From the NCBI GenBank assembly GCA_017510785.1, contig JAFWMH010000026.1, positions 1-64,000 on the forward strand: a stretch of DNA of 64,000 nt, written 5' to 3'. The first letter of the stretch is position 1. Every line of letters starts with the position of its first letter. A program made the position numbers and the translations under genes. Under the pieces are notes generated by a model. The model worked only from the letters and a program-made list of their open reading frames with translations. It searched no databases and had not been told where the DNA came from. Below, piece by piece: positions 43,401-64,000 of the stretch. This DNA is from Atopobiaceae bacterium. GTDB taxonomy: Bacteria; Actinomycetota; Coriobacteriia; Coriobacteriales; Atopobiaceae.

Positions 43401-43944
43401 TTGGCCAGTCATTTACGTAAGTAAGTTCGGCTTTCAAGCCCATGTGATTCGCAAGCAACGTAAATGCGTTAGCGGCGCCTTCGGGGGTAGTTGTGCCACC
43501 GTGAAGCGCCGCTATGGTTTGCTCGTTAAGAGGAGTGCCATCGTCTGCCGCAATAGTCACCACATCGGCAACCGTATGGAACGCCGCACTTAGGCGTTCG
43601 CTCTCCGGCACGTCCGAAAGCGCTGCCATAAGGCCGGCAGCAACACCGGATGCCACGTCGTCCGCTGTAACATCCGATTGTGCGGTGATGCCGGTTGCCG
43701 ACGTGCTAGCATCGGTACTGGAGACGGTTTGGGCATCCTCAGAGTCGCCAGATTGGACATCCTGCCCCCCGGCCTGATCGTCAGTAGATTCCTCGTAAGC
43801 CGAAGGTTCTTCGTTGCCCTCTATCGACTCCGCGAATCCTTCTACGGCGGGTATGGGGAACAGCCCCCACATTAGTACAATTGACATAATAAGTGCTGCG
43901 ACCAAACGCAATAAACCGCGCCGGTTGCATTTTGAGGTACGCAT
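40468..43944 (-). CDS. Secreted repeat protein with Ig-like domains
   Basis: An 1158-residue protein from ATG 43944 (TTGGAGGAG upstream). The signal peptide RRGLLRLVAALIMSIVLMWG ends near VEGFA. A small domain (about 50-200) resembles that of the left-edge protein; an acidic Glu/Ala-rich linker (about 215-330) follows; then a large domain (about 340-760, LSHNVYDCAWGVDNYLWDGA, VVSAFASIDQKSSERSEFG) that could be a beta-propeller. A short fibronectin-like domain (SGLTLTKDVDYKVTYSNN) precedes four Ig-like repeats of about 85 residues, each with a PTITASNK-type strand and GAGKLTY or a close variant, ending TVTITVKK. There is no LPxTG signal or C-terminal helix, so it is probably released or held non-covalently. 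Confidence 0.85.
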   Translation of the reverse strand: MRTSKCNRRGLLRLVAALIMSIVLMWGLFPIPAVEGFAESIEGNEEPSAYEESTDDQAGGQDVQSGDSEDAQTVSSTDASTSATGITAQSDVTADDVASGVAAGLMAALSDVPESERLSAAFHTVADVVTIAADDGTPLNEQTIAALHGGTTTPEGAANAFTLLANHMGLKAELTYVNDWPIPRVFIAENWLSVDVATAVHARAEEGNTEAEEPWGPEQVTIQEPEVVAEEEPVAEEMSEETEIIEEAEDEERETTEANAPTPIEEDAARAEAEAKAEAESQEAESKETSATTNTANSEAGKAKGTTTTNDAKPASEPEAEEQGVLLSKPALSHNVYDCAWGVDNYLWDGARFSALHIDPSGNPERVEFVDNMLVVETLSSSMLQVNKQRVVTASNYQPTGLVKANFRWGGFFSGASHNYVVTGQDNPNCKDSLVVYRITKFDKNWNFVKALELSKSKVSGADGTAVPFSQGTVAFEEEGNLLHIRTAQEYYDGFQSSIHIVVNESNMSLADSMMYKSNQNQTTYGFVSHSFGQQLTNLNGTLYSLDLGDSYPRAVTVKKLGTTGSNSFGKPLVISGEEGDNYTGVILGGLEASASAGKVVSAFASIDQKSSERSEFGARNVYICATDAGNVTSNKVYKLTNYRVNGDKGAALVKLIKLDDAGSQLMVIWSEMNCADPWWNETNQNGKVCYAIIDGNGNRLSDIKSQNGYLSDCEPIMYNSLVSWYAEDFEGNQKPVYYTINPADCTLSSPDNKGSLNDAVILPIATQNYKSGSAVTPAVTVQYSGLTLTKDVDYKVTYSNNTNTGTATVKVTGINGYTGSKSASFIIKKAATITVSNKTIPYGSTVNLGATVTSGAGKLTYKSADSNIVKVDSTGKLTPVKMNASTKITVTAAENGTFNAASKTVTVNVTKGTPTITASNKKVKMGATVTIGASVTSGAGKLTYASKKTTVAKVDAAGKITPVAVGTATIAITSAASTNYNSATKTITVTVTKGTPTITASNKTIKMGTKVSLGAKVSAGAGKLSYTSSSTAVVKVDASGNLTPVKVGKVTITIKNAANANFSSVTKKVTVTVDKGKPTITASNKTVKLGTKPSLGAKTTSGAPKLTYKSANTSIARISSTGVITPVKAGTVKITISSASNANWLAASKTVTITVKK

Positions 43945-44197
43945 GGCTCCTCCAAGTATTTCCTCAATTTTGGCAGGGTGTTGTAATTGAATTGTAACAT
44001 GCATTTGACGCACTTTAGCTGGGAAAATGCAATTGGTTCAAAAAAGTCAGGAGTAGTTTTGCCTTTATTTCCAACATTATCAGCTCGCCTTTAGCTCGCT
44101 CCTCGCACCCTGTAAAATACATCGATTCTTATATTATTTTACTTGCGTTCTTTATTTTTTTGAATACATTCTTCGCTACTTGCGCGGCCTTTTGACT
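43945..44197. other. AT-rich upstream region with inverted repeat
   Basis: No gene is seen. The minus strand has TACAAT in the leader of the Ig-like protein gene. GTAAAATA (44112-44119) and TATTTTAC (44135-44142) form perfect 8-bp arms 15 bp apart. The stretch is clearly richer in A and T than its surroundings. Confidence 0.5.
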
Positions 44198-45076: not shown

Positions 45077-48000
45077 CTACTTGTTGCGCCGACGGGTGAT
45101 ACCGAAGACGATTCCTGCGACACCAACAATCACCAGTGCGATGATGCCAACGAAGCTCGTCGGATCGGACGTAGTGGCCAGTCCAGCGCGTCCGGAGGTA
45201 GCAGTAGTAGCAGTCGTGGTCTTCTTGCCCTCCTCTGTAGGAGGCGTGTAACGGTTGTTCACGGTAAGCTTGTCATTCTTGAACTCGTCCTTGAATGTGC
45301 CGTTCCTAATCTGCTCGCTCATCTTGTTCCAACGCTCGATTGCACTCAGGCCCGTGTACTCGGACGAATCCCACGATACGATGTAGCGCACGCTTGTACT
45401 CATATCATTGTTAACCGTAACAGCAACGTAGTTAGGCGTAGTATCGTAGCTCATGCCGGTTGTCTTGTTCTCAGGTTCCACCTCGGTAATGGTATACCAA
45501 TAGGTACCGGGCTCGGTGTAGATTATGTTATCAAACGTACCAGTTGCGCCAGCCTTTACCTTAACAGAGGTGTTTTGAGGAAGGACATCAGACTTCTTCA
45601 ATCCAAGATCAACCTTATCCAGCTTGAACTCGAACTCTTCGTTGCCCTTGTAGTTCTCGCCCAAAACCTGCTTGGTAACAGCCAGCTGCGCCTGAGATTG
45701 ACGTTTGTTGGTGCAGGTCACGACGGATGAGGCCTCGTTTTCAGACTTAACTTCGCTCAAATCCGCCTTGAGACCACCAGCATCCGTCTCCCTCACACGA
45801 TAGTACAACTTGCTGTTTATTAGCGGCAGTCCCGTTGCGGTGCGAACCTCGCCATCCTTCAGCGTGAACTTCGCGACACCCTTCTCAAACGTCATGTCGC
45901 CATATGTACCGTTAACGTCCTCACGTACCTCGCCTTCTGCACCCGTGGCTGTTTTAAGAGTAACTTCGAACGGGAATTCCTTCTCCTTGTCCGCTTTTAC
46001 GTCGCTCTCAACAACCTTCTTAACACTCAGCGTGCCGTCGGCAGGTTTGTACGTGTTGGTTACCTCGGCATGCTCATTTGTCTCCGTGGACTTGCCCGCG
46101 TCGCAGTCAGCCTTATTTGCGTAATACCGCACGGTCGTCATCAGATTATCGTCCACGACTACAGTCGCATAGCGCGGCGTAGTGTCATACGTCACACCAT
46201 AGGTCTTCTTTGCAGGAGCGACCTCAGTTATCGTGTAGATGTACGTTCCTGCGTCTTCGTATGCAATTGCGTCGAAGGTTCCAGTCTCCCCGGCTTTAAC
46301 CTTAATCGTAGTACTCTCTGGCAACTTATCTGTACCTTCGTCGACCTTCTCAAGCTTGAATTCGAAGTCTTCGTTTGCGGTATACGATCCTTCGGGCGTA
46401 GCCACGAGATTCTTCTTTACGCGGAGCAATGCCTTGCCCTTGTTCGGTACAAATTTGTTCACGATCTTGGCCTCGGCAGTCTTGCCAATCTCGACGCTGG
46501 CAGTAGCCTCAAGTTTGGACTCCTCGGGAACAAACGCACGACCCTCGATCTCGGTTATGTCGCCGGTGTTCGTCTCGGTAACGGTGTACTTACCAGCCGG
46601 AATCCTGGTGAACTCAAGATAATTCGGCTCAGGGGAAACCGTGTTCGTGATCTCCTCGTCCGAGAATACCGTCTTGCCGTCCTCGAGGCCCAGGTAGCGT
46701 CCGTTCTCGTCTTGCACGGTAACCGTAAACTTCTTGTTCTGATACTCGTTCGGAGAGAGGTCCTCAACGCCCGCGAGCGTCTTCACGACCTTGAGTTGGC
46801 CAACCTGGTACTTGTTCACCACGGTGGCAGCCTCGTCGGATGCCTCCTCGTCGTCGGCACGCCTCACAAGCTCATCGGGGTCATTGCCGTAGTACACGCG
46901 GTAGTCGAATCCGTCGCCGCCAAGTACCCTCACGAGCGCGTACTGGGGCTCCATGTTGTACGTCATGCCGGGCGTCGGATTCTCGGGCTCGACCTCAGTA
47001 ATCTTGTAGAAGTAGTCGTGCGCCTTGATGCTCGCATACTTAATCTTGCCGAAGTTCTCGGTGGTGTAGGTTCCGTCCGCCTTGCGCGTAACCGTGACCT
47101 CGGTACCGGGCTCCTCGCCGACCGCGGGCAGCTCGTCCACGAACTCCGTCTCGGCCTCGTTCTCGTCGCGGTTGGCCTTCTCGAGCGTGAACGTAAACTC
47201 CTCGTTGCCGTCGTACTGGAATTCGCCACCGTTGCCAGTGCTCTGGACCTTCTTGGTCACCGCGAGCTGGGCGTCGCCGGAGGATCCTTCCCAGACGTTG
47301 GTAATCTTCACTCGCCCGATTCTGTTCGCAGTTACCCTCACGCGCCCGTTCTGGCCTAGCTGATACGCCCACACGTAGCTGGGGTCATCGCCCTGCGAGC
47401 GCTGCTCAATCACGCGGTACGTGCCCACCTTCAGGTTGTCGATTGTCCAAGTGAGGGTGTTGTTTCTCGTATTCTCGGTGAATTCAGCCAGAGTCTTCAC
47501 AGCGGGCTTGCCGTCGATCTGGAGCACGTTGCCGTCCTCGTCCGTCACCGTGAAGGTATAGGCCTCCCTCTGTTTCTTCGTGAGTTCACGATCCGCGCCC
47601 CGCGTGAGCGAACGACCACGGATGACCTTCTGGATCTGCAGCTTTCCGAGCTCGGTGTCGTACACGTTACCCGCCAGGCCGTCGAGCTGTTCGTTGGCCG
47701 TGAGCTCGAGGTCGCCGTCGAGCACGTCGCCCGTGAGCGTCTCAAGAAGCGAGAGGCGACGCTCGTCCGTATCCGCGAAGTTGGGCTCTTCGCCCTCGGA
47801 GGCGTGGTCCCACGCGGTCACATGACCAGCGACGACCTCGAACACGACCGGCGTGATGGTGTCGTAGCCTGTGGGCGCCGTGGTCTCGGTGAGGAGGTAC
47901 GTGCCGTCGTCGAGGCCCTTGAAGGTGAAGGTGTTGCCAGCCACCTCGACCGGGTAGGACGCGATAATCTTGTTCGTCACCTTGTAGTCATCGATGTCTT

Positions 48001-51000
48001 GGTCGTACTCGTACGACACCTGGCCGTCTTCGTCGAGCTTGATCTTTTCGAGCGTGAACTCCGCGCCTTTGAGCGGCTGCTCGTCGGCCGCATCGAACTT
48101 GCTCACGTCAACCTTGTAGGTGAACGCGATGACGTAGTCCCAAGGCGTCTCCTCGGTGTCGTCCTTGTCATCGTCGGAGGTTGAGGTGTTGGAGTAGATC
48201 AGCTTGCAGCCGTTCACGTTGCCCTGCTTGCCGAGCTTGGCGTTCGAATTGAGCGTGGCGGTGAAGTACACGTTGACCTCCGCCTCGTTGAGGGACTTGT
48301 CCGCGATCTGCTTGCGCGCGTCGCCCTCGCTTTCGCCTGCCCAGTCGATGCGGACGGTGAACTCCCGGTCGTTCGCGCTCGCGAACACGTACTTGCCGAG
48401 GTCGCGCTCCGTGCCGCCCTTGGGCTTGATGGTGACGCGCTCGATCTCGCTGAAGGTGAGGCTCGGCTCCATCTTGTCAACGAAGGTGATGTGGTAGTTG
48501 AAGTAGTTCGTCACGTCGTCGGCCAGCGTGGCGGTGAGCTTGTACGGCACGGCGTCGCCGATGTCGTAGTCGGCCGAGTCCTGCCACTCGCTCGTCTCGC
48601 CGGTGGAGTCGTTGGTGTCCTTTATCTTCTTCTCGAACTCGGGCGTGTCGTGCGGCGTGTTCTCCACGTTGCTCTTGAGCGCCGCGAGCGCCTCGTCCGC
48701 CTCGAGCTTGAGCGCGCCGGTCTCCTCGTTGCCGGTGAGGCTGGTGAGGATGGCCAGGCGATGCTCCTTGCGGTCTGCGAACGTCGGGTCGTCCTCGGCG
48801 TCAATGTAATCCCACGTGTCGCCGTGCTCCGCCTCCACCACGAAGGTGACCGGGTCGAGCAGCTTGTAGCCCTTCGGCGCCTTTGTCTCGGTGAGGCGGT
48901 AGGTGCCGTCGTCGAGGCCCTCGGCCTTGAAGATGTTCTTCTTCTCGCCGCCGCCGTTGGAGATGAGCTCCACGAGCTCCCACGTGGGATCGGCGCCGTC
49001 CTTGCCGGCAATCCTCTTCTCGAGCTTGAACTCGGCGCCCTCGAGAGGCTCGCTCTTCTCGTTCACCTTGCTGAGGTCGACGTCGTACGTGAATGCGATG
49101 ACATAGTCCCAAGGCGTTTCGTCCTCGCGGTCGAGCTCGTCGATCTGCGGGCTGTTGCTGTACTTGAGCTGCGACTTGTTCACGTTGCCGGGCTTGCCGC
49201 GCTTGGCCGTCTTGTTGAGGGTGGCGGTAAACTCGACCTCCACTGTCGCGCCGTTGAGGTTGGCGTCGGCGATGGTTTGCTGTTCGTCGCCCTCGCCTTC
49301 GCCAGCCCAGTCGAGGCGCACCACGAAGTCGTGGTCGTTCTTCACGCTGTCGTCAACCGCGAAGCCGTCCGTGATCTCCTTGCCGTCGGCTCCGATGACC
49401 TTGACCATTGCGTCCTTGTTGTAGTCGAGCGTGGACTCCATCTTGTCGCTGAAGGTGATGTGATACTTCTTGTAGCTCGTCACGTCGTTGGGCAGCTTTG
49501 CGGTGAGCTTGTACGGCACGGCGTCGCCGATGTCGTAGTCGGCCGAGTCCTGCCAGCCGCTCGTCTTGCCGGTGGAGTCGTTGGTGTCTTTGATCTTCTT
49601 CTCGAAGTCGGGCGTGCCAGGCTTCGTGTTGGTGAAGGAGACGGTGTTGACCTTTGCGGACTTGCCGTTTTCGACCGTCACGTCGCGAGCCGGGACGCCG
49701 AGCAGCTTCATGGCCTTGTTGGTGCTTTGGTCGGTGAGCTCCGTCACGGTGTAAGTACCGGCATAGAGGTGGTCAACCGTAGCGGTGTTCGACTTGCCGT
49801 CGGTAATCTCGATGGTTGCCGTCTTCGTCACGCGGTCGGCCTCCTCGAACTCTGCGGGACCGGTGACCTCAAACGTGTAGGTGCCGTCGGCTTCCTTGCT
49901 CGTGGTCTCCTTGCCGTTCACGGTGACGTTCTTCTGGATAACGAGCTCGCCGAGCTTGGTGTTCACGAGGTCGCCCGCGAGCGTCGCGAGGTTCTTGTCG
50001 GTGGTGAGGGTGAGCTTGCCTTCCGTCTCGCTGGCGTTCGTTTGCGTGCCCTCGAGGTTCGTCAGGATCTCGAGGCGTCCCTGGCCGTTCGCGTCGAACT
50101 CGTCCGAGGTGTAGTTCCACTTGGCACCGTGCTCGGCCGTCACCTCGATGATGATCGGGTCGATCTTGCGGTGGTTGTCGGGCGCCGTGACCTCGGTGAG
50201 ACGGTAGATGCCGTCGTCGAGACCCTTGGCGCTGAACAGGCTGCCAGCCTTCGTGAGCGAGACTTCCTCCCACGTGGGATCGGCGTTGTCCTTGCCGGCG
50301 ATTTGCTTCTCGAGCTTGAACTCCGCATCCTCGAGCGCCTGCTTGTCCTCGTCCACCTTGTTCACATCGACCTTGTACGTGAACGCTATGACATAGTCCC
50401 AAGGTGTCTCTTCCTCGTCCTCGTCGGAGTCGTCCTCGCTTGACGGCTTGTTGGAGTAGGCGAGCTTCGCTCCGTTCACGTTGCCCTGCTTGCCGAGCTT
50501 GGCATCCTCGTTGAGCGTGGCGGTGAAGTACACGTGGACAACAGCCTCGTCGAGCTTGAGGTTCTCGTCGTCACCGATGTAGCCCTCGCCACCGTTCGGG
50601 CCAGCCCAGTCGATGCGCAGCGTGAAGTTCTGGCCGTCAACCTTGTTGAACACGTACTTACCCAGGTCGCCCTGCGAGCCGGCCTCGACGTCGGTCTCCA
50701 CGCCATCCTTCGGAGTGATGGTCACGCGCTCGATCTTGTTGAACGTCAGGCTCTGCTCCATTTGGTCGGTGAAGGTGACGTGGTACTTGTGGTACGCCGA
50801 GACATCGTCGGCCAGCGTTGCGGTGAGCCTGTAGGGCACGGCATCGCCGATGTCGTGGTCGGCCGAGTCCTGCCACCTGTTGGCATCGAATGCGGAGATG
50901 TCCTCGGGCTTCACCTCGTACGAATCGTTGACGTCGGCCGTCTTCTTGTCGAACTCAGGCTTGTCGGGCGTGTAGGTATTGGTGATGATGAGCTTGTCCT

Positions 51001-54000
51001 TGGTACGGTCGTACCTCACCGTCGCAGTGAGCTCGTTCGTCTCCTCGTCCTTCTCGACGCTTACGAGCACCACGTGGTCGGCGGTGTCGTAGGTGACGCC
51101 CTTCACGCCGTCGTTTGTCTCGGTGATGACGTAGTAGTAGTCGCCAGCCTTCGTGTAGGTGATCTCGCCCCACGTGGCCGTCTTGTTCGCCTCAGTGGCG
51201 TAGGCCTTCGTTCCGTCGTTCTGGTCGCTGACCGCGGGAGGCATGGGGGTCGTGCGCTTCTCAGCCGTGAGCGTGAACTCGAACCTCTTGGCCTTGCCCC
51301 AGGCGTCGAACTTCTTGGTGGCCTCGATTACGGCCTTCGCCGGCGTGAAGGTGTTGGTGATCGTGAGTGAATCTTGCTTGTCGTACTTCACCTCGGCGGA
51401 GAGCGCGTTCGTTTGCTCGTTCTGCGTCACAGTAACCACCACAGTGTGCGGCGTCGTGTCGTAGCTCACGCCATCCACGCCGTCGTTGCGCTCGGTAATG
51501 GTGTAGGTGTACACACCCGGCTTCTCGTAGTTAATCTCGCCCCACGTGGCCTTCTTGTTGGCCTCGGTCGCGGTGGCAACGGCGCTGGTGGGCATGGGCG
51601 CTCCGCCTGCTATATCGGCATCATTGTTGTCCTTGGCCGAGACAGCCGCAAGATCGAACGTAAAGCTCTTGGCCTGGCCCCAGTCGTTGAACTCCTTCGT
51701 TGCCTCAATCGTGGCCGTAGCCGGGGTGAAGGTGTTGTTGATGGTAAGCGAATCGGCCTTGTCGTACTTCACGTCGGTGCTGAGCTTGTTGCCGGCACCC
51801 TTGGTTACGGTAACGACTACGTTGTGCGGCGTCGTGTCGTAGGTGACGCCCGGCACGCCGTCGTCGGTCTCCGTAATGGTGTACTTGTACACGCCGGCCT
51901 TCTTGAACTCGATTTCGCCGAAGTCGACGGTCGGTTTGCTCTTCGTGGCGTCGAGCGCGAACTCGCCGTCGGTAGCGCCAGCAGGCATCGGGGTATCGAC
52001 GCCGTCCACGTTGTTATCGCCCGCCTTGAGCGTGAAGGTGAACTTGTTGGCCTTGCCCCAAGCATCCGCGCCGAGGTTCGTGAGGAAGCTCTTGGTAGCC
52101 TGGATGCTCGCCTTGGGTGACTCGGAGCGGTTCGTAATGGTGAGAGCATTCGCCTCCGTCTCGCCGTACTTCACCTCGGCAGAGAGCGCGTTGGTACCGG
52201 AATCCTTGGTTACGACGACCTTAACGGGATACGGGGTAGTGTCGTAGGTTACGCCGTCAACTCCGTCGTCGGTTTCGGTAATGGTGTACTCATACGTGCC
52301 AGCCTTGTCGTAGGCAATCTCGCCGAACACCGCGTCGAGCTTCTCCGGATCCTTGGTGGCTTGGGCGGTAATCTTGCCGTTCGCAGCACCCGTGGGCATC
52401 GGAGCGTTGTTCTTGGCCTCGAGCGTGAACTTGAAGTGGTCGGCGTTACCCCAGTCGTTGATGGCCTTCGTCACCTTAAGGGTACGCTTAACCGGCGTAA
52501 AGGTATTGGTGATAATGAGCGGCTTGTCGGTATCGTCGTACGTCACCGACGTCTGGAGCGTGTTGTTCTTGTCGCGCACCACATTAACCACAACGTTGTG
52601 TGTGGTGGTGTCGTACGTGACGCCGTCCACGCCATCGTTGGTTTCGGTAATGGTGTAGCGATACTGGCCTTCGGTGGTGTAGGCAATGTCGCCGAAGTTG
52701 ACCTTGGGCTCCTGTTCGGTAGCGTCCTTCGCAAGCGTGCCGTCGTCTGTGGCGCCAGCGGGCATCGGTGCACCATTCACACTCGCAAGCGTGAAGGTGA
52801 ACTTCTGGGCCTTGCCCCAGTCCTCGAATGCCTTCTCGGCCTCAATTTCGGCATGGGCGATGTGATCATCGACGACGTCACCCGTCAGGGTAGCGAGTTC
52901 TTTGTCGGCCTGGAGCTTAATCGCACCACCAGTAGTGTTGCCCGTCAGAGACTCAAGCACCTCAAGACGTGCCGGGGTAGCTGCGGTTGTGTAGAAGTCA
53001 GCAGAATCCACGTCGCCGTTGGAGTTTGCATCCCACGAAGTTACGTGTCCAGCGTTCACGACGAAGGTGATAGGATCAATCTTGGTGTAGTCAGTCGGAG
53101 CCTCCGTCTCGGTGAGAACGTACGTGCCGTCATCGAGACCCTTGAAGGAGAACACCGGGTCGGCACCCATATTGGTGTATGCCTGCACGACCTCCGCGGT
53201 ATTATTGGCAAAGACCTTCTCGAGCTTGAACTTCGCGCCCTTTAGCTCTGCCCCAGACTGGTCCTTCTTGTTAACGTCCACCTTATAGGTAAAGGCTATA
53301 ACGTAGTCCCACGGGGTGTTCTCGTGACTGTCACCGTTGTTGGGGTTGTTCGAATACGTGAGCTTGGCGCCGTTAACATTGCCTTCCTTGCCGAGCCTCG
53401 CCTTGTCGTTAAGCTTCGCATGGAAGGTGAGTTCGACGCGTGCACCATTGAGCTTGGACGTAATGTTGCGCTGTCCGGTGCCGTTCTTCACCCATTGCAT
53501 GCGTGCACTGAAGCTGTGTTCAAGGTTTTGGTACGTGAACGAATTCGCGAGCGACTCTTCCGTACCATCGTTGTAGAAAATCTTTACGTCGTCGAGCCAC
53601 TTATTATTGCCCTCCAGCGAGAGAGACTCTTCCATTTGGTCCGTGAACCATACGTCATATGCCTTGTAGTCCGACACGTCGTTCGCAAGAATTGCGGTGA
53701 GCTTGTACGGCACGTCATCACCGATGTCGTAGTCGGCCGAGTCCTGCCAGCCGCTCGTCTCGCCGGTGGAGTCGTTGGTGTCCTTGATCTTCTTCTCGAA
53801 GCTGGGCTTACCGGGCTTCACGTTGGTGAACTCGGCTGTGTGAACCTCAACGTCCTTGCCAACTTCTACCTGAACCTGCACGTCGTTTCCGCTGAGAAGC
53901 ACCATTCCCGTGGGGTTCTGTTCGATCTGCTCATGCACCGTGTACGTACCAGCCGAGAGCTCCTCAAGGGTAGCAGTGGCAGACTTACCGTCCTTCACCT

Positions 54001-57000: not shown

Positions 57001-60000
57001 CAGCAGCCGCGTCGGAAATGAGCACCTTCGAGAGTACCAGTTGACCAGGCTCGCGCTTGTTGGTGAACTTCACCGACGACGCGCTAGTACTGATTACACC
57101 TTCCGCCTTTCGATCTTCAACGCTAGTACCCGTATTCCTATCATTGATGGTAACACCCGTCAGCTCGAAGTCGGCGGCGCTCTCCTCGGTAACGGTGTAG
57201 TACACACCCACTGGCAGGTTAATGGCAGTCGCCGTATCGCCACCCGTCAGCGTAACCGTAGCCTCACCATTCTCGAAGTTAATGGCCGTCTCGCCAGTGC
57301 CATATCTGCCGCTCAACGTGGAAGGTTGCGTGCGGGCAGCGTCGTTCCAAAGCTTCACATTGAACGTAAACTCCACGTCCTGATCGGCTGCGGCGTCGGA
57401 AAGAACCGTCTTGTTTATGCTGAGACTACCAGATTGACGAGTGTTCGTGCAATTGATAATAGCGGGCGCAGCATAGTTCACACGGCCTGTCTTGCCGCTC
57501 CAAGTAGCCGAAATGCCTTCGACCGTTTCCTCGTCCACCGTGTAATTCACACCCGTAGGAATACCAGCGTCATCGGCACTAGCCGTGGTGTACACGGTTT
57601 GTCCGTTCGTCAGTGAGGACCCACGCAAAGCCGCAGCGTAATCTGCGCCAATTATGACACTCTCACCATCTTTGAGCGTAAGCGTTGCCTCACCATTGAT
57701 GAAAGTAAGCGGGTTGTTCGTATCGACGGTAAGCTTGTCGTCAGTACCCTTAACTACAGGATACAGATTGAACACGTAGTCATTGCCGCTCTTCGCGCCA
57801 ATGTTTCCACCGGTAAGCTTTACGGTAAACGTATATTCGCGATCCTTATCGGCCTCCAGCTGACTCGTCACACGCTTGTAGAGCTGCAGCTCGCCGTTTT
57901 CGCGTTTGTTCGTGTATCCGCCGATTCCGCGTGCGTCAATGTCGGCACCCTCGTCCAGCCACTGATAGTTGGTGAGTTCTACCGCTCCGTTAGAACCATA
58001 GCCCACAAGGCCGGTTGTGTTCCACCCGCTTTGCTGGAAGTCCGCATCAGCGTCCTCGTTAATCGTGTAACGCAGTCCCTTGGGAAGATCTGTCGCAATG
58101 CACTTTTCGCCACTCTTAAGCGTGAACTCCGCAACACCATCCGTAAACGTCATATCGCCAAAGGTGCCGCTAATGCTCGTATCGGCAAGCTCAACACGGA
58201 AACGGAATTCTTTGTTGGCATCCTCCTCAAGCTGGCTCACAACGTGCTTCTGTACTTCAATGGGGCCGAGTTCTACGTTGTTGGTAAACACGACTTCATC
58301 AGTGGTGTTCTTTGAGATCGCCGGATCGTAGGCATTGCCCGCATCGGTGCCCTGCCATGCGGTAGTAGCATCTTGCTTATCCCACGTGTTGAGCGTGGTT
58401 ACGCCATTACGCGTCGTCGTTGTTATGTCGCGCTCTACGGAATCCGACCCATCATCCCATGTCAGCGTCTTGGTTTCCTTGCCAGGAGCATAGGTACCAT
58501 CGGCATTCGCCGTTGGCTCCTGCGTGTAGCCATAGGTATACGTCTTTGCTTGCGTTTCATCCGGCTTATCGGTCTTGCCCTTAGTAGTACTACTCCACGT
58601 GGTGGTATAGCCGTCCTTATGGGTTTCGGTTACGGTGTAACCAAGACCAACCGGAAGCGTATAGTAAGCGCTATCTCCCTCGGACAGAGGATTCTCATCT
58701 GTGCCCTCATTAGCAGTGCTCAGGCTCTCGCCCTTCTTGAGAGTGAAGCTTGCCACGCCGTTCGCAAAGGTCATGCGACCGAACGTTCCGGTGATGGTTT
58801 TATCGTCGAGCTCAACGCGGAAGCTGAACTCATCGTTTTCGTCCGACACAGTACTATCGCCGCTCTTTGTAACCTTGAGATTACCGTTCTCGCTCTCGTT
58901 AACCACGACGACTTGAGCTTCATTGTCAGACTCTATCTTGCCCTTTGTAAAGCTATAGTCACCGTCCTGGGCGAGTTCTACCTCACCGACCTTCACGATG
59001 AAGCCAGCGGGGGTTTTCTCTTCTACCTTGTACCAAAGGCCATTCTCGCCAAGAGGCAGGTTAAGCGCATACGCCACCTCACCATCTTTGAGCGTGAACG
59101 TCGAGACACCATTAGTAAACGTCATGGCACCGCTAGCGCGACCACCGCCACCATAGGTGCCGTTAACATCCGCCGGATCCGTGCACCCCTCATCGGTATA
59201 GAGCGTTACGCGGAACTCGTAGTCCTTGGTCTTATCGGAACTCATGGGGCTATTGACGCTCTTGGTTACGTACAAACCACCTTCAGTACGCGTGTTGTAG
59301 AAACGTGCCTCGCTAAGTCCTTCAAGCTTGCCTGTCTCGCCCGTTTTTACCAGTGCAAAACCTTCAGGCGTTTCTTCCCATACGGCATAGTACAGTCCGC
59401 GCGGCAGGTTGGTGAACTTAGCAACATCTCCGCCATAGATACCTGTTGAGGCAGTTCCACCGCTAAAGGTGCGGGAGGTCTTTTCCGTTGCACCAGTGAA
59501 AATTCCATAGGTTCCCGAAAGACTAGTGGCCGTAGCCGCAGGAATTGTACCATCCGCCGCAATTGTCGGCTGTTCGGTATAGAAGTTAATTGTGAACTGA
59601 TAGTAGTAGTTGTAGTCGGCTTCGGTATGGCTTACTACCGTCTTATAAACATCAAGCTCGGCAGGCTGACGGGTGTTACGAGCGTAAACGCGTGCCGTAT
59701 CATTAGCCGGAATGCTTCCCGTCTTACCACTCCACGTAGTGGTGAAGCCTGCCTCGTCGGTTTCGGTTACAGTGTAGGCAATACCAGCTGGCAGGTTACG
59801 CGCCGATGCAGTTTCGTTGTGTTTGAGCGTAAACTCGGCAACGCCATTTTCGAACTCAATAGCCTTGTTCCCCGCAGTAATCACCGGATAACGATACGAA
59901 TCGCCAGTCTTGTCGTTAGTAATGGTTGTGTCGCCAAGCTCCACCTTGAAGCGGAATTCTTTGGTAAGGTCCTCAGAATACTGGCTCGTCACCTGCTTGT

Positions 60001-63000
60001 TAACCAAAATGTTGCCAGGCACACGTGTGTTGTTATACGTGGGTCCGCTGTAGGTATGTTCGGGGTTCGTGTTCTGCGTAACGGTATCGGTTACCACAAC
60101 GTTATTCGAAACAGTGCTGACCTTAGACGCGGCAACACCATCAACCGTGGTAGTAAAGTCGTTATCGCGCACCTCGGTTATGGTATACGTCAAGCCAACG
60201 GGCAGGTTCTCGGCATAAACACTCTCGGTATCTTTGAGCGTAAACGTTGCAAGTCCGTTGTTGAACTTGATCGTGCCATATTTGAGGGACTCATCGTCAT
60301 CGGTAGCGGGGTCGTCGTCCGGCGACGTAATGCTGGCACCGTTTATGCGAACATTGAAGGTGAACTCACGCTCATGATCGTCCTGCTGGGGACTTGTCAC
60401 AGCCTTGGTAAGTTTGAAGCCACCCGTTTTGCGTTCGTTTTGGAATTCCTCGGTAGCTTTGCCACCGAATTTAGGTGTTTTGCCAGTCCTCTCAGCACTG
60501 GTATTGCCCTTGAGCTGGAAGTTGTCCACGCTACGCTCGGTTACTTTGTAGTCAACGTCGCTAGGCAGGCCGCTGATGGTCGCCTTTTGACCTCCGACCA
60601 GCGTGATGGTGGCCTTCCCGCCAGTCAACTTAATCTTTCCACTGTCACCCTGCTTCGCAGGAGCATACGCGATATCGAACTCCTTGCCGGCATCCTCATC
60701 GGTAAGACCAGTAAATACTACGTCGAAAGTGAACTCTTGGTTAGCGTCAGCCGATACGTCGGATATGAGTTCCTTGGAAATTTCCAAATCGCCAGGAACG
60801 CGCATATTGCGTAGTGTAACCTCCGAAGGTTGGAGCTCAATGGTATCGACGGGCTGGCCAATGAAGCCGGCAAAAGCAATACCATCTTGCCCAAGGCCAT
60901 CCATCACCTCGTTCACGTTATACCTAACGCCGACCGGTATGTTAGTAAACTCTTTTGTTTCATCGTGCTTGAGTTTGAAGCTGTACTCGTGATACTGACC
61001 GGTCTGCGTGTAGGTGATGCCGCCAAACGTCTTATCGCCATCGGAAAGACCATTGAGCCTAAGAACTACATCAAATTCCTTGCTTTCATCCGCTTTGTTG
61101 CGGCCCAGCATCGTCTTGGTAATCTTCAGATTACCATAGGTATCATCATTAGTAATTGTTGCCGTCTCGTTGTTCTCCTTCAGCGTACCAGACGTATTCT
61201 CCGTTCCAGAAATCGAATACGAACTGGTAACACCGGAGAGATCCTCGGCAACGCTGTACGTTACACCTATCGGCAAGCCATTGATCGTTGCGGTTTCGTT
61301 CCCTCTGAGCATAAGCCTCGCAACGCCATTATTCAACGTCACTGTGGAGCCAGAGCCACCCGTCCTCTCGGGCTCGTACGTGACCGGATACGTAGCATTA
61401 GCGGCCTCGCTCGTGAGTCCCGTTAGCGTTACTACAAAGGCAAATGTACGCGAGGCGCTGGAGCTGCGATTGGAATTAAGCACCTTCTTTATCGGCAGAC
61501 TCGTGGTTTTGCGCTCGTTAACGAATGACGCATTGCTTCCTGTGCCACCTTGGGCAATGCTTCCCTCGTAGACAATTTGGCCCGTTTGGCTAAAGCCTTC
61601 CGCAACACGCTCGGTTATAACATAGTACAGGCCCACAGGCAATTGCTCACCGCTCACGTTGTTATTCGCCTTAACGTTTACGACAGCATCGCCGTTGGTA
61701 AACGTCATACCACCGTACGTACCGCTGATGTTCGCCTTCTGCGTATGCTGCTCGTCAGTGTAGAGCGCTACGTCAAACGTGAACTCCTGGTTAGCGTCGG
61801 CCGTAAGCTTGGAAATGAGTTGCTTCGATACGGTGAGACGACCCCTTGTGCGAGAGTTGGTAAAGTGCTTCGATGCAATATTCGATGTAATCGTACCGGC
61901 CGTAATCGTACCAGTGGTCGTGCTCGAATCGGATCCATCTCGTATGGTAGTTGCAAATTGATCAAGTTTGCCGTAGAGGCTTGCAGGCACCTCTGCGGAA
62001 CTCTTCCCTGCAGCTTGCACGGTTTGGGACGTCGTGTCGACTTCTTCTACCTTATACTTGGTTCCCTCCGCAATTCCGTTGGCAACGGCCTGCTGATTGT
62101 GCTTAAGCACAACGTACGCAACGCCATTGTTGAACTTCATATCACCGTATTGTTGCGTAATGGAGGTGTTCACGGAGTCATCTTCGTTGAGCAGGGAAAT
62201 CTTGAAACTATAATACTTGCCCTCGTCCTCGCTCAACGGGGAGCTTACGTTCTTCGATACCAGCAGGCCACCCTCATCCTTGGTGTTGGTGAATTTGGCG
62301 TTAGCGAGCGTAGAAGAACTGATCTTTCCTGTCTCTCCCGTGCTGCCGATAGCAAAGCCCGTAGAGGCAGCCTCGGTTACGGTGTACGTTACGCCCTCCG
62401 GCAAACCAATAGCCAGAGCCTTTTCCCCGTGTTTGAGCTTAACGTTTGTTGCGCGACCGTTGGTAAAGGTTATGGCCTTCGTTTTGCCATCAGCAGAATT
62501 CTCACCAAAGGTTCCATTAATCGACGTGTCCGAAAGCACGATAGTAAAGTTGAACTCTACATCTTTGTCGCCATCCGTACTCGAAACTACCGTCTTATCG
62601 ATTTCGAGGTTGCCCTTATTGCGCGTGTTTGTTGCCAATACTTGTTGAGTGACGCCCTTTACGATAGTTCCCGCACCGGTAGTTGTGTCACCACTCCACG
62701 TAAGGGTAAACCCTTCCTGCGTGGTTTCCGTTACGGTGTACTTGAGCCCTGCTGGGAGGCCTATTGCCTCTCGCTCTTGATCATTTGTGAGCCTGAAGGT
62801 TGCGACGCCGTTCGTAAACGACATGGCCGTGTTACCTGTACCGTAGGTGCCGCTCAACGAGGAGCCATCAAGGGTTACGGTAAAGTCGAATTGCTTCGTA
62901 AGATCATTTGCAAAGTCACTGCTGATAATCTTCTTGACTTTGAGGCCACCCTCGTCCTTACTGTTCGTGAACTCCACGGAAGAATCGGTCTTCGCGATAT

Positions 63001-64000
63001 ATCCCTCGGCCTGGCGTTGTTCGATGTTCTTCGTTGATCCGTGGTTTCCATCCGCTCCACCGGCCAAGGTAATACCGGTTAAGCTGAAGCCCGTTGCCGA
63101 CTGCTCAGTAATGGTGTACTTCACACCGGTAGGAAGCCCTGTAATGTTAACAGAATCACCACCAGCAAGTTCAACGGAAGTACGCCCATTGGTAAAGGTT
63201 GCACCACCGTAATTGCCAGTAAGTGACGTATCGTCCAGCTGAATAATAAAGGTGAATCTCGTGTTTTGATCAGCCGGATTCGACGAAAGAATCGACTTGG
63301 AGAGCGTAAGATTGCCCCTCTCCACCTTATTGTTAGTAAAGGCTGCTGTAGGAATCTCCGTCGTTTGACCCGCCTGTACTTCAACACTCTTGTTGTTGCC
63401 ACCCTGTTGGCTACCACCCACGAGCGTCATGTTCTCAGGCAGGTGCGTTACGCCTTCGTTCTCGTGAATGACGTAGGTACCCACGGGAAGGTTATCGATT
63501 TGCACATAGCCATCGGCACTTGGCGTAACAGAACGCCAATTCAGGGACTCCCCACCCTGGCCGTTCGGCGTACGCTCCGAGGTAAGCTCATATCGAGCAT
63601 CTACTGGCACACCATTTTGGAAGATGATTTGTACACGAGCATACGGCTTCTCCGTGCTATTGTAGGCATTCTCCCAAATCTGGAACGTGTACGGCCTGTT
63701 ATCGAATGAGTTATCTCCCGAAGTGAGAGTTCCGAAGTCCGCCGTATCGAGTACAGGCTTCCCATTTATCGTGACGTTCTTCTTAATCTTCAGTGATCCG
63801 AGTTCCACGTTGTTGGTGAAGGAAGCCGTACCAGTCGCATCAACCGTCGTGCCGGCCTTTACGGTGGCGGTTACCACGTTATCCGCAACTGACTTGCCAC
63901 CTTCGGCGGAAACGAGGGTAGCTTCATCGTTCGTAGAATCGGTCTCCGTAATGGTGTAGTCGCCAACGGATAGATTATCCACCGTCACGTAGCCATTGGT
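45077..64000 (-). CDS. Giant modular fimbrial-type surface adhesin, at least 6307 residues (N-terminus off right edge)
   Basis: One uninterrupted frame fills 18.9 kb and is still open at the right edge; the first codons seen (TNGYVTVDNLSVGDYTITE) are inside a module. In protein order: about 19 DUF5979/Cna-B-like modules of about 105-200 residues; three supermodules of fimbrial backbone domain plus SpaA-like domain, the first two also with a DUF5979-like domain; five FctA-like pilin isopeptide modules; three more supermodules; then mixed FctA and Cna-B modules and a wall anchor. The end is GKKTTTATTATSGRAG, LATTSD, a hydrophobic helix FVGIIALVIVGVAGIVFG and ITRRRNK. Such modules usually form Lys-Asn isopeptide bonds that lock a thin stalk, so this is probably a very long wall-linked fibre for attachment. 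Base use varies along it: 48-51 kb looks richer in G and C than 56-64 kb. Confidence 0.93.
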   Translation of the reverse strand, partial: TNGYVTVDNLSVGDYTITETDSTNDEATLVSAEGGKSVADNVVTATVKAGTTVDATGTASFTNNVELGSLKIKKNVTINGKPVLDTADFGTLTSGDNSFDNRPYTFQIWENAYNSTEKPYARVQIIFQNGVPVDARYELTSERTPNGQGGESLNWRSVTPSADGYVQIDNLPVGTYVIHENEGVTHLPENMTLVGGSQQGGNNKSVEVQAGQTTEIPTAAFTNNKVERGNLTLSKSILSSNPADQNTRFTFIIQLDDTSLTGNYGGATFTNGRTSVELAGGDSVNITGLPTGVKYTITEQSATGFSLTGITLAGGADGNHGSTKNIEQRQAEGYIAKTDSSVEFTNSKDEGGLKVKKIISSDFANDLTKQFDFTVTLDGSSLSGTYGTGNTAMSFTNGVATFRLTNDQEREAIGLPAGLKYTVTETTQEGFTLTWSGDTTTGAGTIVKGVTQQVLATNTRNKGNLEIDKTVVSSTDGDKDVEFNFTIVLSDTSINGTFGENSADGKTKAITFTNGRATNVKLKHGEKALAIGLPEGVTYTVTEAASTGFAIGSTGETGKISSSTLANAKFTNTKDEGGLLVSKNVSSPLSEDEGKYYSFKISLLNEDDSVNTSITQQYGDMKFNNGVAYVVLKHNQQAVANGIAEGTKYKVEEVDTTSQTVQAAGKSSAEVPASLYGKLDQFATTIRDGSDSSTTTGTITAGTITSNIASKHFTNSRTRGRLTVSKQLISKLTADANQEFTFDVALYTDEQHTQKANISGTYGGMTFTNGDAVVNVKANNNVSGEQLPVGLYYVITERVAEGFSQTGQIVYEGSIAQGGTGSNASFVNERKTTSLPIKKVLNSNRSSSASRTFAFVVTLTGLTSEAANATYPVTYEPERTGGSGSTVTLNNGVARLMLRGNETATINGLPIGVTYSVAEDLSGVTSSYSISGTENTSGTLKENNETATITNDDTYGNLKITKTMLGRNKADESKEFDVVLRLNGLSDGDKTFGGITYTQTGQYHEYSFKLKHDETKEFTNIPVGVRYNVNEVMDGLGQDGIAFAGFIGQPVDTIELQPSEVTLRNMRVPGDLEISKELISDVSADANQEFTFDVVFTGLTDEDAGKEFDIAYAPAKQGDSGKIKLTGGKATITLVGGQKATISGLPSDVDYKVTERSVDNFQLKGNTSAERTGKTPKFGGKATEEFQNERKTGGFKLTKAVTSPQQDDHEREFTFNVRINGASITSPDDDPATDDDESLKYGTIKFNNGLATFTLKDTESVYAENLPVGLTYTITEVRDNDFTTTVDGVAASKVSTVSNNVVVTDTVTQNTNPEHTYSGPTYNNTRVPGNILVNKQVTSQYSEDLTKEFRFKVELGDTTITNDKTGDSYRYPVITAGNKAIEFENGVAEFTLKHNETASARNLPAGIAYTVTETDEAGFTTTWSGKTGSIPANDTARVYARNTRQPAELDVYKTVVSHTEADYNYYYQFTINFYTEQPTIAADGTIPAATATSLSGTYGIFTGATEKTSRTFSGGTASTGIYGGDVAKFTNLPRGLYYAVWEETPEGFALVKTGETGKLEGLSEARFYNTRTEGGLYVTKSVNSPMSSDKTKDYEFRVTLYTDEGCTDPADVNGTYGGGGRASGAMTFTNGVSTFTLKDGEVAYALNLPLGENGLWYKVEEKTPAGFIVKVGEVELAQDGDYSFTKGKIESDNEAQVVVVNESENGNLKVTKSGDSTVSDENDEFSFRVELDDKTITGTFGRMTFANGVASFTLKKGESLSTANEGTDENPLSEGDSAYYTLPVGLGYTVTETHKDGYTTTWSSTTKGKTDKPDETQAKTYTYGYTQEPTANADGTYAPGKETKTLTWDDGSDSVERDITTTTRNGVTTLNTWDKQDATTAWQGTDAGNAYDPAISKNTTDEVVFTNNVELGPIEVQKHVVSQLEEDANKEFRFRVELADTSISGTFGDMTFTDGVAEFTLKSGEKCIATDLPKGLRYTINEDADADFQQSGWNTTGLVGYGSNGAVELTNYQWLDEGADIDARGIGGYTNKRENGELQLYKRVTSQLEADKDREYTFTVKLTGGNIGAKSGNDYVFNLYPVVKGTDDKLTVDTNNPLTFINGEATLTLKDGESVIIGADYAAALRGSSLTNGQTVYTTASADDAGIPTGVNYTVDEETVEGISATWSGKTGRVNYAAPAIINCTNTRQSGSLSINKTVLSDAAADQDVEFTFNVKLWNDAARTQPSTLSGRYGTGETAINFENGEATVTLTGGDTATAINLPVGVYYTVTEESAADFELTGVTINDRNTGTSVEDRKAEGVISTSASSVKFTNKREPGQLVLSKVLISDAAADQDRTFKFTVRLDDNTIGTNDRPRRYNVVTDGDKSLSFVSGVATVELKGGEVASVDGLPIGVGYTVTEESATGFEVTKDGDTGNITKQQSKVKFTNKRLTGGLKVSKKLLLGRVEDKDQLFNFTVTLSDTSINTTGNKTYGAMEFTNGVANFTLKADQELAATNLPIGINYTVTESATDGFVLYGRVGNTGVINTGVQEAVFTNTKPDKPTFEKKIKDVNDSTGEESGWQDSADYDIGDEVPYKLTATLANDVTSYRKYHVTFTDQMEESLDFIQDSVEVFVNGNKLTSGYELTKVNDHKFTVRVAWAGTSDAPIADTSLNLGVVDVYFKARLNDNAKLGKEGNVNASKLAYSNNPTSEDDSDETELPWDYVIAFTYKVDVNKKDQDGNDLTGAQFTLEKVKADNTTEVIQQYANIGTDPVFSFKGLDDGTYVLKETQKPSDKYAQLEDIVFTVTAGHADLWNYNTTGDNPVFDVTGRSSVLRSLTGNTTTGELDLAADNDLATLVGDVTNQGLGSLIIKKNVTKDGKAVTDDALDGTYTFNVTRKGDANYQETIDITIRGGQSNTATLSNLIPDEYTITEDTRALAGQGIVLLGGTSRTVTVTALNDATNPTTVPTAEFTNTKPGTPEFNKKIADVNDSQETQPEDISQFDPTRWEDSADHDIGDSVPYKLTATLSNDVTSYKNYHITFTDKMESSLDFNVLKKVTLNGVEATNYTLTPNPASGDGKVHGFTLRLDWHGEGEGDEQQTIADDSLNGAVVEVYFTATLNNTAKIGKQGNINACKLSYSNNPNSEDDSDEGEKPWDYVIAFTYQVDVNKVDEQKKPLIGAEFTLAKVNANNTTEVVQTYTVINNDPKFSFRGLDDGTYVLTETKAPDGYKQIDPITFVVAATHKAEWENANSQAALAYLPDDVTPARTSVLESLTGNTTTGVLTLNIDQQSGDESHLTGEVENTSLGKLHIKKNVLFDGREASTQEEKDAVNGIYKFQVTGPNEYQNTVELEVKDGKSATATLEELSAGTYTVHEQIEQNPTGMVLLSGNDVQVQVEVGKDVEVHTAEFTNVKPGKPSFEKKIKDTNDSTGETSGWQDSADYDIGDDVPYKLTAILANDVSDYKAYDVWFTDQMEESLSLEGNNKWLDDVKIFYNDGTEESLANSFTYQNLEHSFSARMQWVKNGTGQRNITSKLNGARVELTFHAKLNDKARLGKEGNVNGAKLTYSNNPNNGDSHENTPWDYVIAFTYKVDVNKKDQSGAELKGAKFKLEKVFANNTAEVVQAYTNMGADPVFSFKGLDDGTYVLTETEAPTDYTKIDPITFVVNAGHVTSWDANSNGDVDSADFYTTAATPARLEVLESLTGNTTGGAIKLQADKELATLTGDVVDDHIAHAEIEAEKAFEDWGKAQKFTFTLASVNGAPMPAGATDDGTLAKDATEQEPKVNFGDIAYTTEGQYRYTITETNDGVDGVTYDTTTHNVVVNVVRDKNNTLQTSVTYDDTDKPLIITNTFTPVKRTLKVTKAINDWGNADHFKFTLEAKNNAPMPTGAANGKITAQATKDPEKLDAVFGEIAYDKAGTYEYTITETDDGVDGVTYDTTPYPVKVVVTKDSGTNALSAEVKYGETEANALTITNRSESPKASIQATKSFLTNLGADAWGKANKFTFTLKAGDNNVDGVDTPMPAGATDGEFALDATKSKPTVDFGEIEFKKAGVYKYTITETDDGVPGVTYDTTPHNVVVTVTKGAGNKLSTDVKYDKADSLTINNTFTPATATIEATKEFNDWGQAKSFTFDLAAVSAKDNNDADIAGGAPMPTSAVATATEANKKATWGEINYEKPGVYTYTITERNDGVDGVSYDTTPHTVVVTVTQNEQTNALSAEVKYDKQDSLTITNTFTPAKAVIEATKKFDAWGKAKRFEFTLTAEKRTTPMPPAVSDQNDGTKAYATEANKTATWGEITYTKAGDYYYVITETNDGVKGVTYDTADHVVLVSVEKDEETNELTATVRYDRTKDKLIITNTYTPDKPEFDKKTADVNDSYEVKPEDISAFDANRWQDSADHDIGDAVPYRLTATLADDVSAYHKYHVTFTDQMEQSLTFNKIERVTITPKDGVETDVEAGSQGDLGKYVFNKVDGQNFTLRIDWAGPNGGEGYIGDDENLKLDEAVVHVYFTATLNEDAKLGKQGNVNGAKLAYSNKPSSEDDSDEDEEETPWDYVIAFTYKVDVNKVDEDKQALEDAEFKLEKQIAGKDNADPTWEEVSLTKAGSLFSAKGLDDGIYRLTEVTAPDNHRKIDPIIIEVTAEHGAKWNYTSDEFDANGQGRLEILTNLEGTQTNASETEGKLTLTTDKNLATLAGDLVNTKLGELVIQKNVTVNGKETTSKEADGTYTFEVTGPAEFEEADRVTKTATIEITDGKSNTATVDHLYAGTYTVTELTDQSTNKAMKLLGVPARDVTVENGKSAKVNTVSFTNTKPGTPDFEKKIKDTNDSTGKTSGWQDSADYDIGDAVPYKLTAKLPNDVTSYKKYHITFSDKMESTLDYNKDAMVKVIGADGKEITDGFAVDDSVKNDHDFVVRLDWAGEGEGDEQQTIADANLNGATVEVEFTATLNKTAKRGKPGNVNKSQLKYSNSPQIDELDREDETPWDYVIAFTYDVDLSKVNEKSEPLEGAEFKLEKRIAGKDGADPTWELVELISNGGGEKKNIFKAEGLDDGTYRLTETKAPKGYKLLDPVTFVVEAEHGDTWDYIDAEDDPTFADRKEHRLAILTSLTGNEETGALKLEADEALAALKSNVENTPHDTPEFEKKIKDTNDSTGETSEWQDSADYDIGDAVPYKLTATLADDVTNYFNYHITFVDKMEPSLTFSEIERVTIKPKGGTERDLGKYVFASANDREFTVRIDWAGESEGDARKQIADKSLNEAEVNVYFTATLNSNAKLGKQGNVNGCKLIYSNTSTSDDDKDDTEETPWDYVIAFTYKVDVSKFDAADEQPLKGAEFTLEKIKLDEDGQVSYEYDQDIDDYKVTNKIIASYPVEVAGNTFTFKGLDDGTYLLTETTAPTGYDTITPVVFEVVAGHVTAWDHASEGEEPNFADTDERRLSLLETLTGDVLDGDLELTANEQLDGLAGNVYDTELGKLQIQKVIRGRSLTRGADRELTKKQREAYTFTVTDEDGNVLQIDGKPAVKTLAEFTENTRNNTLTWTIDNLKVGTYRVIEQRSQGDDPSYVWAYQLGQNGRVRVTANRIGRVKITNVWEGSSGDAQLAVTKKVQSTGNGGEFQYDGNEEFTFTLEKANRDENEAETEFVDELPAVGEEPGTEVTVTRKADGTYTTENFGKIKYASIKAHDYFYKITEVEPENPTPGMTYNMEPQYALVRVLGGDGFDYRVYYGNDPDELVRRADDEEASDEAATVVNKYQVGQLKVVKTLAGVEDLSPNEYQNKKFTVTVQDENGRYLGLEDGKTVFSDEEITNTVSPEPNYLEFTRIPAGKYTVTETNTGDITEIEGRAFVPEESKLEATASVEIGKTAEAKIVNKFVPNKGKALLRVKKNLVATPEGSYTANEDFEFKLEKVDEGTDKLPESTTIKVKAGETGTFDAIAYEDAGTYIYTITEVAPAKKTYGVTYDTTPRYATVVVDDNLMTTVRYYANKADCDAGKSTETNEHAEVTNTYKPADGTLSVKKVVESDVKADKEKEFPFEVTLKTATGAEGEVREDVNGTYGDMTFEKGVAKFTLKDGEVRTATGLPLINSKLYYRVRETDAGGLKADLSEVKSENEASSVVTCTNKRQSQAQLAVTKQVLGENYKGNEEFEFKLDKVDLGLKKSDVLPQNTSVKVKAGATGTFDNIIYTEPGTYWYTITEVEPENKTTGMSYDTTPNYVAVTVNNDMSTSVRYIVSWDSSEYTGLSAIERWNKMSEQIRNGTFKDEFKNDKLTVNNRYTPPTEEGKKTTTATTATSGRAGLATTSDPTSFVGIIALVIVGVAGIVFGITRRRNK
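45164..45181 (-). other. Atypical cell-wall sorting motif LATTSD
   Basis: LATTSD is encoded by 45164-45181, directly followed by PTSF, a 17-residue hydrophobic helix and RRRNK. This is exactly where a sortase LPxTG motif is expected, but the Pro and the Gly are both replaced. Confidence 0.7.
45260..47645 (-). repeat. Adhesin C-terminal module block
   Basis: Six modules alternate between Cna-B-like (KLQIQKVIRG, QLKVVKTLAGVED, TLSVKKVVESDV) and FctA-like (AQLAVTKKVQST, LLRVKKNLVATPEG, AQLAVTKQVLGENY) types. The FctA-like ones carry the YTITEV or YKITEV strand and a YDTTP, YDTTPN or YNMEP block before the last strand. Confidence 0.7.
47645..50970 (-). repeat. Adhesin supermodules 4-6
   Basis: Three backbone-SpaA supermodules starting near 50970, 49612 and 48643. 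Each begins with a P-E/D-F-D/E-KK segment, then WQDSADYDIGDAVPYKLTA (or DHDIGDAVPYRLTA), a backbone domain, PWDYVIAFTYKVDV and a SpaA domain with GLDDGTYxLTE. The end of number 4 is followed by a DUF5979-like domain (ELVIQKNVTVNGKE). The block is visibly GC-rich. Confidence 0.75.
50970..52850 (-). repeat. Five tandem FctA-like isopeptide modules
   Basis: Modules start near 52850, 52490, 52115, 51715 and 51330 and are about 120-130 residues each. Each has an Ala/Val-Lys strand (IEATKEFNDWGQAKSFTF or a close variant), APMP or TPMP, YTITE, DGVDGVTYDTTP and a closing ITNTFTP. These match the streptococcal pilin isopeptide linkage domain. Confidence 0.8.
52850..56382 (-). repeat. Adhesin supermodules 1-3
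   Basis: Three supermodules starting near 56382, 55122 and 53812 with the same plan as 4-6. Numbers 1 and 2 end in a DUF5979-like domain (SLIIKKNVTKDGKA, KLHIKKNVLFDGRE); number 3 runs directly into the FctA array. Confidence 0.75.
56382..63800 (-). repeat. About nineteen tandem DUF5979/Cna-B-like modules
   Basis: Each module starts with a (N/D/E)L-x-(V/I)-x-K strand followed by VxS and a D/E-rich turn, has a FTNGxAxxxL strand, then GLPxGxxYTVTE and closes with FTN-x-(K/R)-x-x-G. Lengths range from about 105 to about 200 residues and the modules are well diverged from each other, unlike the supermodules. Confidence 0.8.

Follow-up and report, generated by a model that had tools for sequence, protein, structure and literature searches.

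A minus-strand reading frame in the window (the 64,000-nucleotide stretch analyzed here, positions 1–64000 of the 181,511-base contig C80 in an 81-contig, 3.56-Mb host genome) raises the question of whether a pilus can be made as one covalent polypeptide in place of sortase assembly, as an earlier note on this DNA had proposed, or whether the frame encodes a surface protein of another kind. The frame (45077–64000) is open at the window edge, and extending it into the contig, as that note had recommended, led to an ATG start 5,565 bases past the window, at contig position 69565. The complete CDS (contig C80, 69565..45077, minus strand) has no internal stops and encodes 8,162 aa, with a predicted mass of 887 kDa and a pI of 4.5. 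The N-terminal 1,855 residues are encoded outside the window; the frame is real, and the earlier figure of more than 6300 codons was a lower bound. Calling the gene larger than almost any in bacteria was an overstatement, since Adlercreutzia equolifaciens, of the same class, has the published giant LPXTG genes AEQU_0093 and AEQU_1251, of 74.8 and 74.2 kb (PMC3778203). These surface genes are three times longer than the present one and were compared with it by size and type alone. The gene is real and intact, and its predicted product is a wall-anchored giant surface protein.

By inspection, the protein begins with a signal peptide (MKRGPNDKPLARILSIVVSISMILSLVPSDGVAEA), after which come an acidic linker (aa 36–140), a segment that duplicates the beginning of the head (aa 139–281) and the head itself, a conserved, multi-domain N-terminal region of ~900 aa (aa 602–1500). 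The C-terminus (RAGLATTSDPTS; 45080..45181, minus strand) is a sorting signal in which the non-canonical motif LATTSD, read as LATTSDPTS, precedes a hydrophobic helix and the residues RRRNK. Most head-bearing relatives with a sorting signal have xTGD or xTSD endings, their C-termini showing TPKTGD, LATTGD, TPKTSD or TAQTGD and then a hydrophobic stretch; two giants of another type end in LPSTGG. No class A or housekeeping sortase was clearly identified in the host genome. The head was modeled as a chain of beta-strand-rich domains (pLDDT 81). Sequence comparison with the PDB gave it no convincing solved relative and one weak unrelated match, and Pfam returned almost no matches for ten heads; an MG2 match was judged to be due to chance, and Foldseek matches to generic Ig strings (complement, macroglobulin, integrin), all with TM < 0.2, were dismissed as uninformative. 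Because the head has no convincing relative by sequence, Pfam or fold, its putative role in adhesion is deduced from architecture. The giant gave no match to a thioester domain (TED), a negative that is weak by itself since control genomes likewise gave none; residues 1–3,460 are free of Cys. The ester-bond motif HxDxxDxxQ was not found in the giant.

The stalk consists of about 45 modules: 25 of DUF7601 type, six pairs of a pilin-backbone domain (PF16569, hereafter BB) with SpaA, and eight FctA. Purpose-built HMMs counted 25 DUF7601-type, six BB, six SpaA and nine FctA-type modules, and Pfam counted eight FctA in the giant frame; because the module at aa 7310–7427 is classed differently by different models, “about 45” is the safe count. 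From the head toward the wall (all on the minus strand), two CnaB/DUF7601-type modules that span the window edge (aa 1794–2083) are followed by 18 tandem DUF7601 modules (aa 2084–4394; 56384..63316). Then come pair 1 (D2-type PF16569 plus SpaA; 55469..56380), pair 2 (54146..55126) and pair 3 (52868..53812), with single CnaB/DUF7601-type spacers between them at 55130..55459 and 53810..54142. Five tandem FctA modules (PF12892; 50972..52852) lead to pair 4 (49961..50965), a further CnaB/DUF7601-type spacer (49622..49951), pair 5 (48659..49618), pair 6 (47657..48649) and a wall-proximal mixed block in which FctA and DUF7601 modules alternate (45242..47638).

Pfam gave the same outline, with DUF7601/DUF5979 across the first long array and then six GramPos_pilinBB plus SpaA pairs and FctA. 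The motif DxDIGDxVPY[KR]LT matched six times, coinciding with the six PF16569 and PF17802 (SpaA) pairs, and the six backbone-SpaA supermodules described earlier are thus present. The modules then called Cna-B-like do form a diverged array, but their family is DUF7601/DUF5979; the five-copy FctA array likewise lies where it had been placed, between pairs 3 and 4, with three more copies near the C-terminus that had gone unlisted. NCBIfam matched the submitted pairs to RrgB_K2N_iso_D2 and, below cutoff, to the SpaH/EbpB-family major pilin, and the FctA block to the streptococcal pilin isopeptide linkage domain. Weak Pfam matches on FctA pieces (Pih1_fungal_CS, MtrC-MtrF_N, SdiA-regulated and DUF6544) were judged to be chance.

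Although their mean pairwise identity is 0.30 (range 0.15–0.51), the 25 DUF7601-type modules share four invariant columns among 101 well-occupied ones: a K near the start, the Y and E of a YxVxE strand, and an N at the end. K, E and N fall where the known CnaB triad lies. In RrgB, Lys-Asn bonds form with an essential Glu (PMC3132780). The same residues are kept in the other module classes, with K, E and N in all eight FctA copies, the KK lysine and GN asparagine in BB (43 sequences from many genomes), and K and E in the SpaA consensus, which is completed by a terminal N or D in six of six copies of the giant. Internal Lys-Asn/Asp isopeptide bonds would therefore be predicted, from residue conservation, throughout these stalk modules, in agreement with the earlier view of the protein as a giant single-chain stalk of isopeptide type.

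An AlphaFold2 model of pair 1 with the next DUF7601 module (mean pLDDT 92) was compared with the PDB using Foldseek, and its best match was the Streptococcus sanguinis shaft pilin PilA (8wxd, E 7.4e-23), followed by other backbone and basal pilins. In a profile search, the pair aligned with 8wxd residues 184–441, taken as D2–D3 (E 1.5e-62), and the N-terminal part of 8wxd (D1) was unrepresented. The model of copy 1, together with the sequences of all six copies, supports a predicted BB-SpaA fold like D2–D3 of shaft pilins, and in profile and predicted fold the pairs are like PilA and the SpaH/EbpB- and RrgB-type pilins. The latter, however, have a D1 domain with the pilin lysine, end in LPxTGG and are polymerized, and the giant's pairs are without all three. 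No D1 precedes D2 in the pairs, and no YPK/PK-type lysine motif was found in them; copies 1, 2, 3, and 5 (but not 4 and 6) do have a Lys that can be lined up visually with the pilin PK, but it is part of FTNTK, the sequence that closes the CnaB module before the pair. Each of the 31 complete single-BB pilins examined carries a terminal LPxTGG; the giant has LATTSD instead, and no class C sortase adjoins its gene. Because a regular-expression search found PK just before D2 in only 11 of these 31 pilins, the argument from pilin motifs rests more on the missing D1 and the sorting signal than on PK.

The head was found in 12 of the 16 genomes of the genus (E ≤ 0.001) and, at a stricter cut-off (E ≤ 1e-8), in 20 of 140 genomes of the family. 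Stalk length and make-up vary beneath it: stalks are mainly DUF7601 in genomes G010, G011, and G012, mainly FctA in G014 (contig C43), G002 (C41) and G014 (C3), and mixed, with BB-SpaA, in G002 (C59) and the window giant. The order of the DUF7601 modules is nevertheless fixed. Counting same-class reciprocal best matches only, and ignoring forced pairings of BB/SpaA with DUF7601 across the BB/FctA block, collinear pairs numbered 23 of 23 for G011–G012, 19 of 19 for G010–G011 and 22 of 23 for G010–G012. When each was set against the window protein, the longest collinear stretches comprised 13 of 13 pairs (G010), 11 of 14 (G011) and 12 of 13 (G012), and for each comparison none of 20,000 shuffles reached the observed collinearity. 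Even a long insert at aa 3678–3766 has a counterpart in all four DUF7601-type giants.

The BB/SpaA/FctA block (aa 4396–7303) differs among these same proteins, with six BB copies in the window giant, two in G011, one in G010 and none in G012, and we conclude that the backbone pairs are a lineage-specific insertion beside an older array of ~20 DUF7601 modules. Third-position GC climbs from 0.56 to 0.90 within the one gene (contig 45077–69565) in steps that match the module blocks (head 0.56, array 0.59, BB 1–3 0.70, FctA 0.83, BB 4–6 0.90), which would fit a different origin or age for the block. PF16569 was present in 116 of 299 genomes of the order, and among the matches listed every frame longer than 1,200 aa came from this genus, those of other genera having 395–972 aa. 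The statement that backbone domains normally occur singly thus holds within the order, for the matches listed, but fails more widely, as rumen Lachnospiraceae/Clostridia MAGs have multi-BB giants too. A plasmid search with the BB-SpaA pair gave no matches.

The host genome also carries ordinary pilus genes. At C80:172.6–177.6 kb, about 100 kb from the giant, a pilus locus encodes a 562-aa backbone pilin, a minor pilin and a pair of class C-type sortases, of which one scored above the NCBIfam cut-off and the other below it; it is adjoined by a 3,649-aa module-rich frame with FctA, Cna_B, and DUF7601 modules, whose product is presumed to be the tip. Contigs C25 and C50 carry further class C sortases, and at C80:152 kb there is a class B-like sortase, a candidate for anchoring the giant. 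The earlier note had advised looking for class C sortases near the giant gene; a search reaching about 80 kb from it turned up no sortase gene. Since ordinary pilus genes are present in the same genome, the giant accompanies them and does not replace them. A one-polypeptide pilus that substitutes for sortase-polymerized pili would account for the six D2–D3 pairs in a single chain and for the match of the modeled structure to shaft pilins, but we consider it decidedly unlikely: conventional pilin and class C sortase loci coexist with the giant, its pairs lack D1 and the pilin motif, and they are a minority of the modules, confined to a lineage-specific block that is absent in G012 and has a third-position GC of 0.70–0.90 as against 0.56–0.59 in head and core array. 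It is also unlikely that a class C sortase loads the giant onto a conventional pilus as a tip or co-polymerized subunit. The pilus locus on the same contig does have a large module-rich protein of its own, the presumed tip, which lends that idea some plausibility; the nearest ~80 kb around the giant, however, are without a sortase gene, LATTSD stands in place of the LPxTGG of the single-BB pilins, and the stalk is already long.

That the giant is an assembly artefact, a chimera or a decaying gene is barely credible, even though the window comes from a fragmented genome. Copies of BB, SpaA, and FctA share 60–80% DNA identity, the longest exact repeat in the 24.5-kb gene is 56 bp, and TRF found no tandem repeat array in the window part of the gene; because the copies are so diverged and the repeats too short to mis-assemble easily, collapse or chimerism, a concern raised in the earlier note, is unlikely. 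The head and array order also recur in independently assembled relatives, the same head lying in frames of 3,461–6,455 aa in other assemblies of the genus and in a 4,472-aa frame in a two-contig genome from another genus of the family. As to decay, the triads are retained in all copies, and dN/dS was 0.21 over 5,775 codons in a related pair of giants (G002 C41 and G014 C3, 76% identical), so such frames are under purifying selection. The same divergence bears on a periscope-type antigenic spacer, in which recombination among nearly identical repeats would change the length. Genomes do differ in the overall length and composition of the stalk, but with DUF7601 copies just 15–51% identical, exact repeats this short and a module order fixed across species, such a spacer is very improbable. 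More speculatively, the stalk may be an addressed structure, in which each of the ~20 DUF7601 modules has a position-specific role (a defined bend, binding patch or force step, the order being kept at roughly 30–60% identity) and the wall-proximal pilin-derived cassette is exchanged to set length or stiffness; we offer this tentatively, as a possibility that may well prove wrong.

Among known systems, the closest is the 7,651-aa adhesin of Mobiluncus mulieris, in which 51 Ig-like domains are cross-linked; the paper describing it already sets it apart, as the product of a single gene, from polymerized pili (PMC10619420). Both are actinobacterial, sortase-anchored products of a single ORF of similar size with dozens of Ig-like domains, and the Spy0128/FctA-like isopeptide domains of the Mobiluncus protein have their counterpart in the FctA of the giant, which likewise combines a signal peptide and sorting signal with dozens of predicted Ig-like domains bearing triad residues. 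The Mobiluncus adhesin, however, combines ester-bond and isopeptide domains and carries, at its N-terminus, a putative thioester domain; neither the ester-bond motif nor a TED match was found in the giant, and its mix of DUF7601, pilin backbone D2–D3 and FctA modules is a different one. Because the ester-bond motif is absent, we do not file the giant in the same family. Periscope proteins are defined by highly identical tandem repeats in variable number (PMC9704523); the giant shares with them a single-chain, wall-anchored rod that projects an N-terminal functional region, but its repeats are diverged and their order conserved. A literature search for giant isopeptide adhesins in rumen Coriobacteriales yielded no paper. 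The size and chemistry of the giant are therefore of a known kind, and the new features are the multi-copy pilin D2–D3 pairs and, chiefly, a module order that stays the same across species.

Other giants were observed alongside this one. The host genome has further giant frames on C7 (5,854 aa), C25 (6,601 aa), C50 (5,120 aa) and C77 (5,667 aa) and at C80:161–172 kb (3,649 aa), which carry some of the same modules. Also in the host genome (G000), frames of 4,137 aa (C61, L120) and 3,911 aa (C64, L121) run off contig ends within DUF7601 arrays of 26 and 28 modules, which share 53% identity on average and 81% at most; the C61 frame has a signal-like N-terminus and the C64 frame a C-terminus, and they may be halves of one assembly-broken gene of over 8,000 codons. 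Endings also differ among giants. Five large BB-containing frames from rumen Clostridia MAGs (L032, L036, L040, L042, and L065) have a common C-terminus resembling EEYETPLGVEVIINHVGDCFD, without LPxTG or a membrane helix, perhaps an alternative anchoring signal. Three giants (G003:C74, L100; G000:C64, L121; G060:C1, L114) end in HLVDPYPTDYFT plus about 35 residues, without a sorting signal, and in G003 smaller membrane-anchored-looking genes adjoin that giant.

Gene neighborhoods likewise varied. In both G002 (C41; L104/L105) and G014 (C3; L106/L107), the FctA-type giant lies within a type IV pilus-like cluster, as read from the sequences, with PilC/GspF-like and prepilin-like genes on one side and a prepilin-peptidase-like gene on the other. 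In G010, G011, and G013 (L094, L097, and L108), the giant gene has as its neighbor one for a secreted subtilase with ChW domains; release of the adhesin by such a protease was considered and set aside, as the arrangement holds in those three genomes and not at the window giant, whose downstream neighbor (40468–44013) encodes a secreted protein with Big_2 repeats.

With the frame, its anatomy, the conserved triads, the collinearity and the coexisting normal pilus system directly observed, we consider it very probable that the gene encodes a giant adhesin made as one polypeptide and anchored by a sortase, with a cross-linked stalk and a conserved outer head. Such a protein would be exported through its N-terminal signal peptide, and a sortase would recognize LATTSD and link it to the wall. 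The roughly 45 Ig-like modules would fold and form internal Lys-Asn/Asp isopeptide bonds, giving a rod resistant to proteases and force that, at about 4–5 nm per module, may reach ~0.2 μm. The rod would hold the ~900-aa head at a distance from the cell, where it could attach to a surface, a fiber or another cell. Its history would be that of an ancient fixed-order core of about 20 DUF7601 modules to which a wall-proximal cassette of D2–D3 pairs and FctA was added, or in which it expanded, in this lineage.

Long bacterial stalks are usually explained as sortase polymers or as arrays that gain and lose repeats. The giant adhesin would be one chain of unlike modules in a kept order, with pilin-backbone domains reused as stalk beads, which raises the question of why module order would be selected. 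Its ~25 natural DUF7601 sequences, at 30% identity and sharing almost only the cross-linking residues, may help to define what an isopeptide bond requires. The presence of the giant and ordinary pili in one genome, moreover, allows one to ask whether a one-chain stalk and a polymerized pilus differ in the job that they do.
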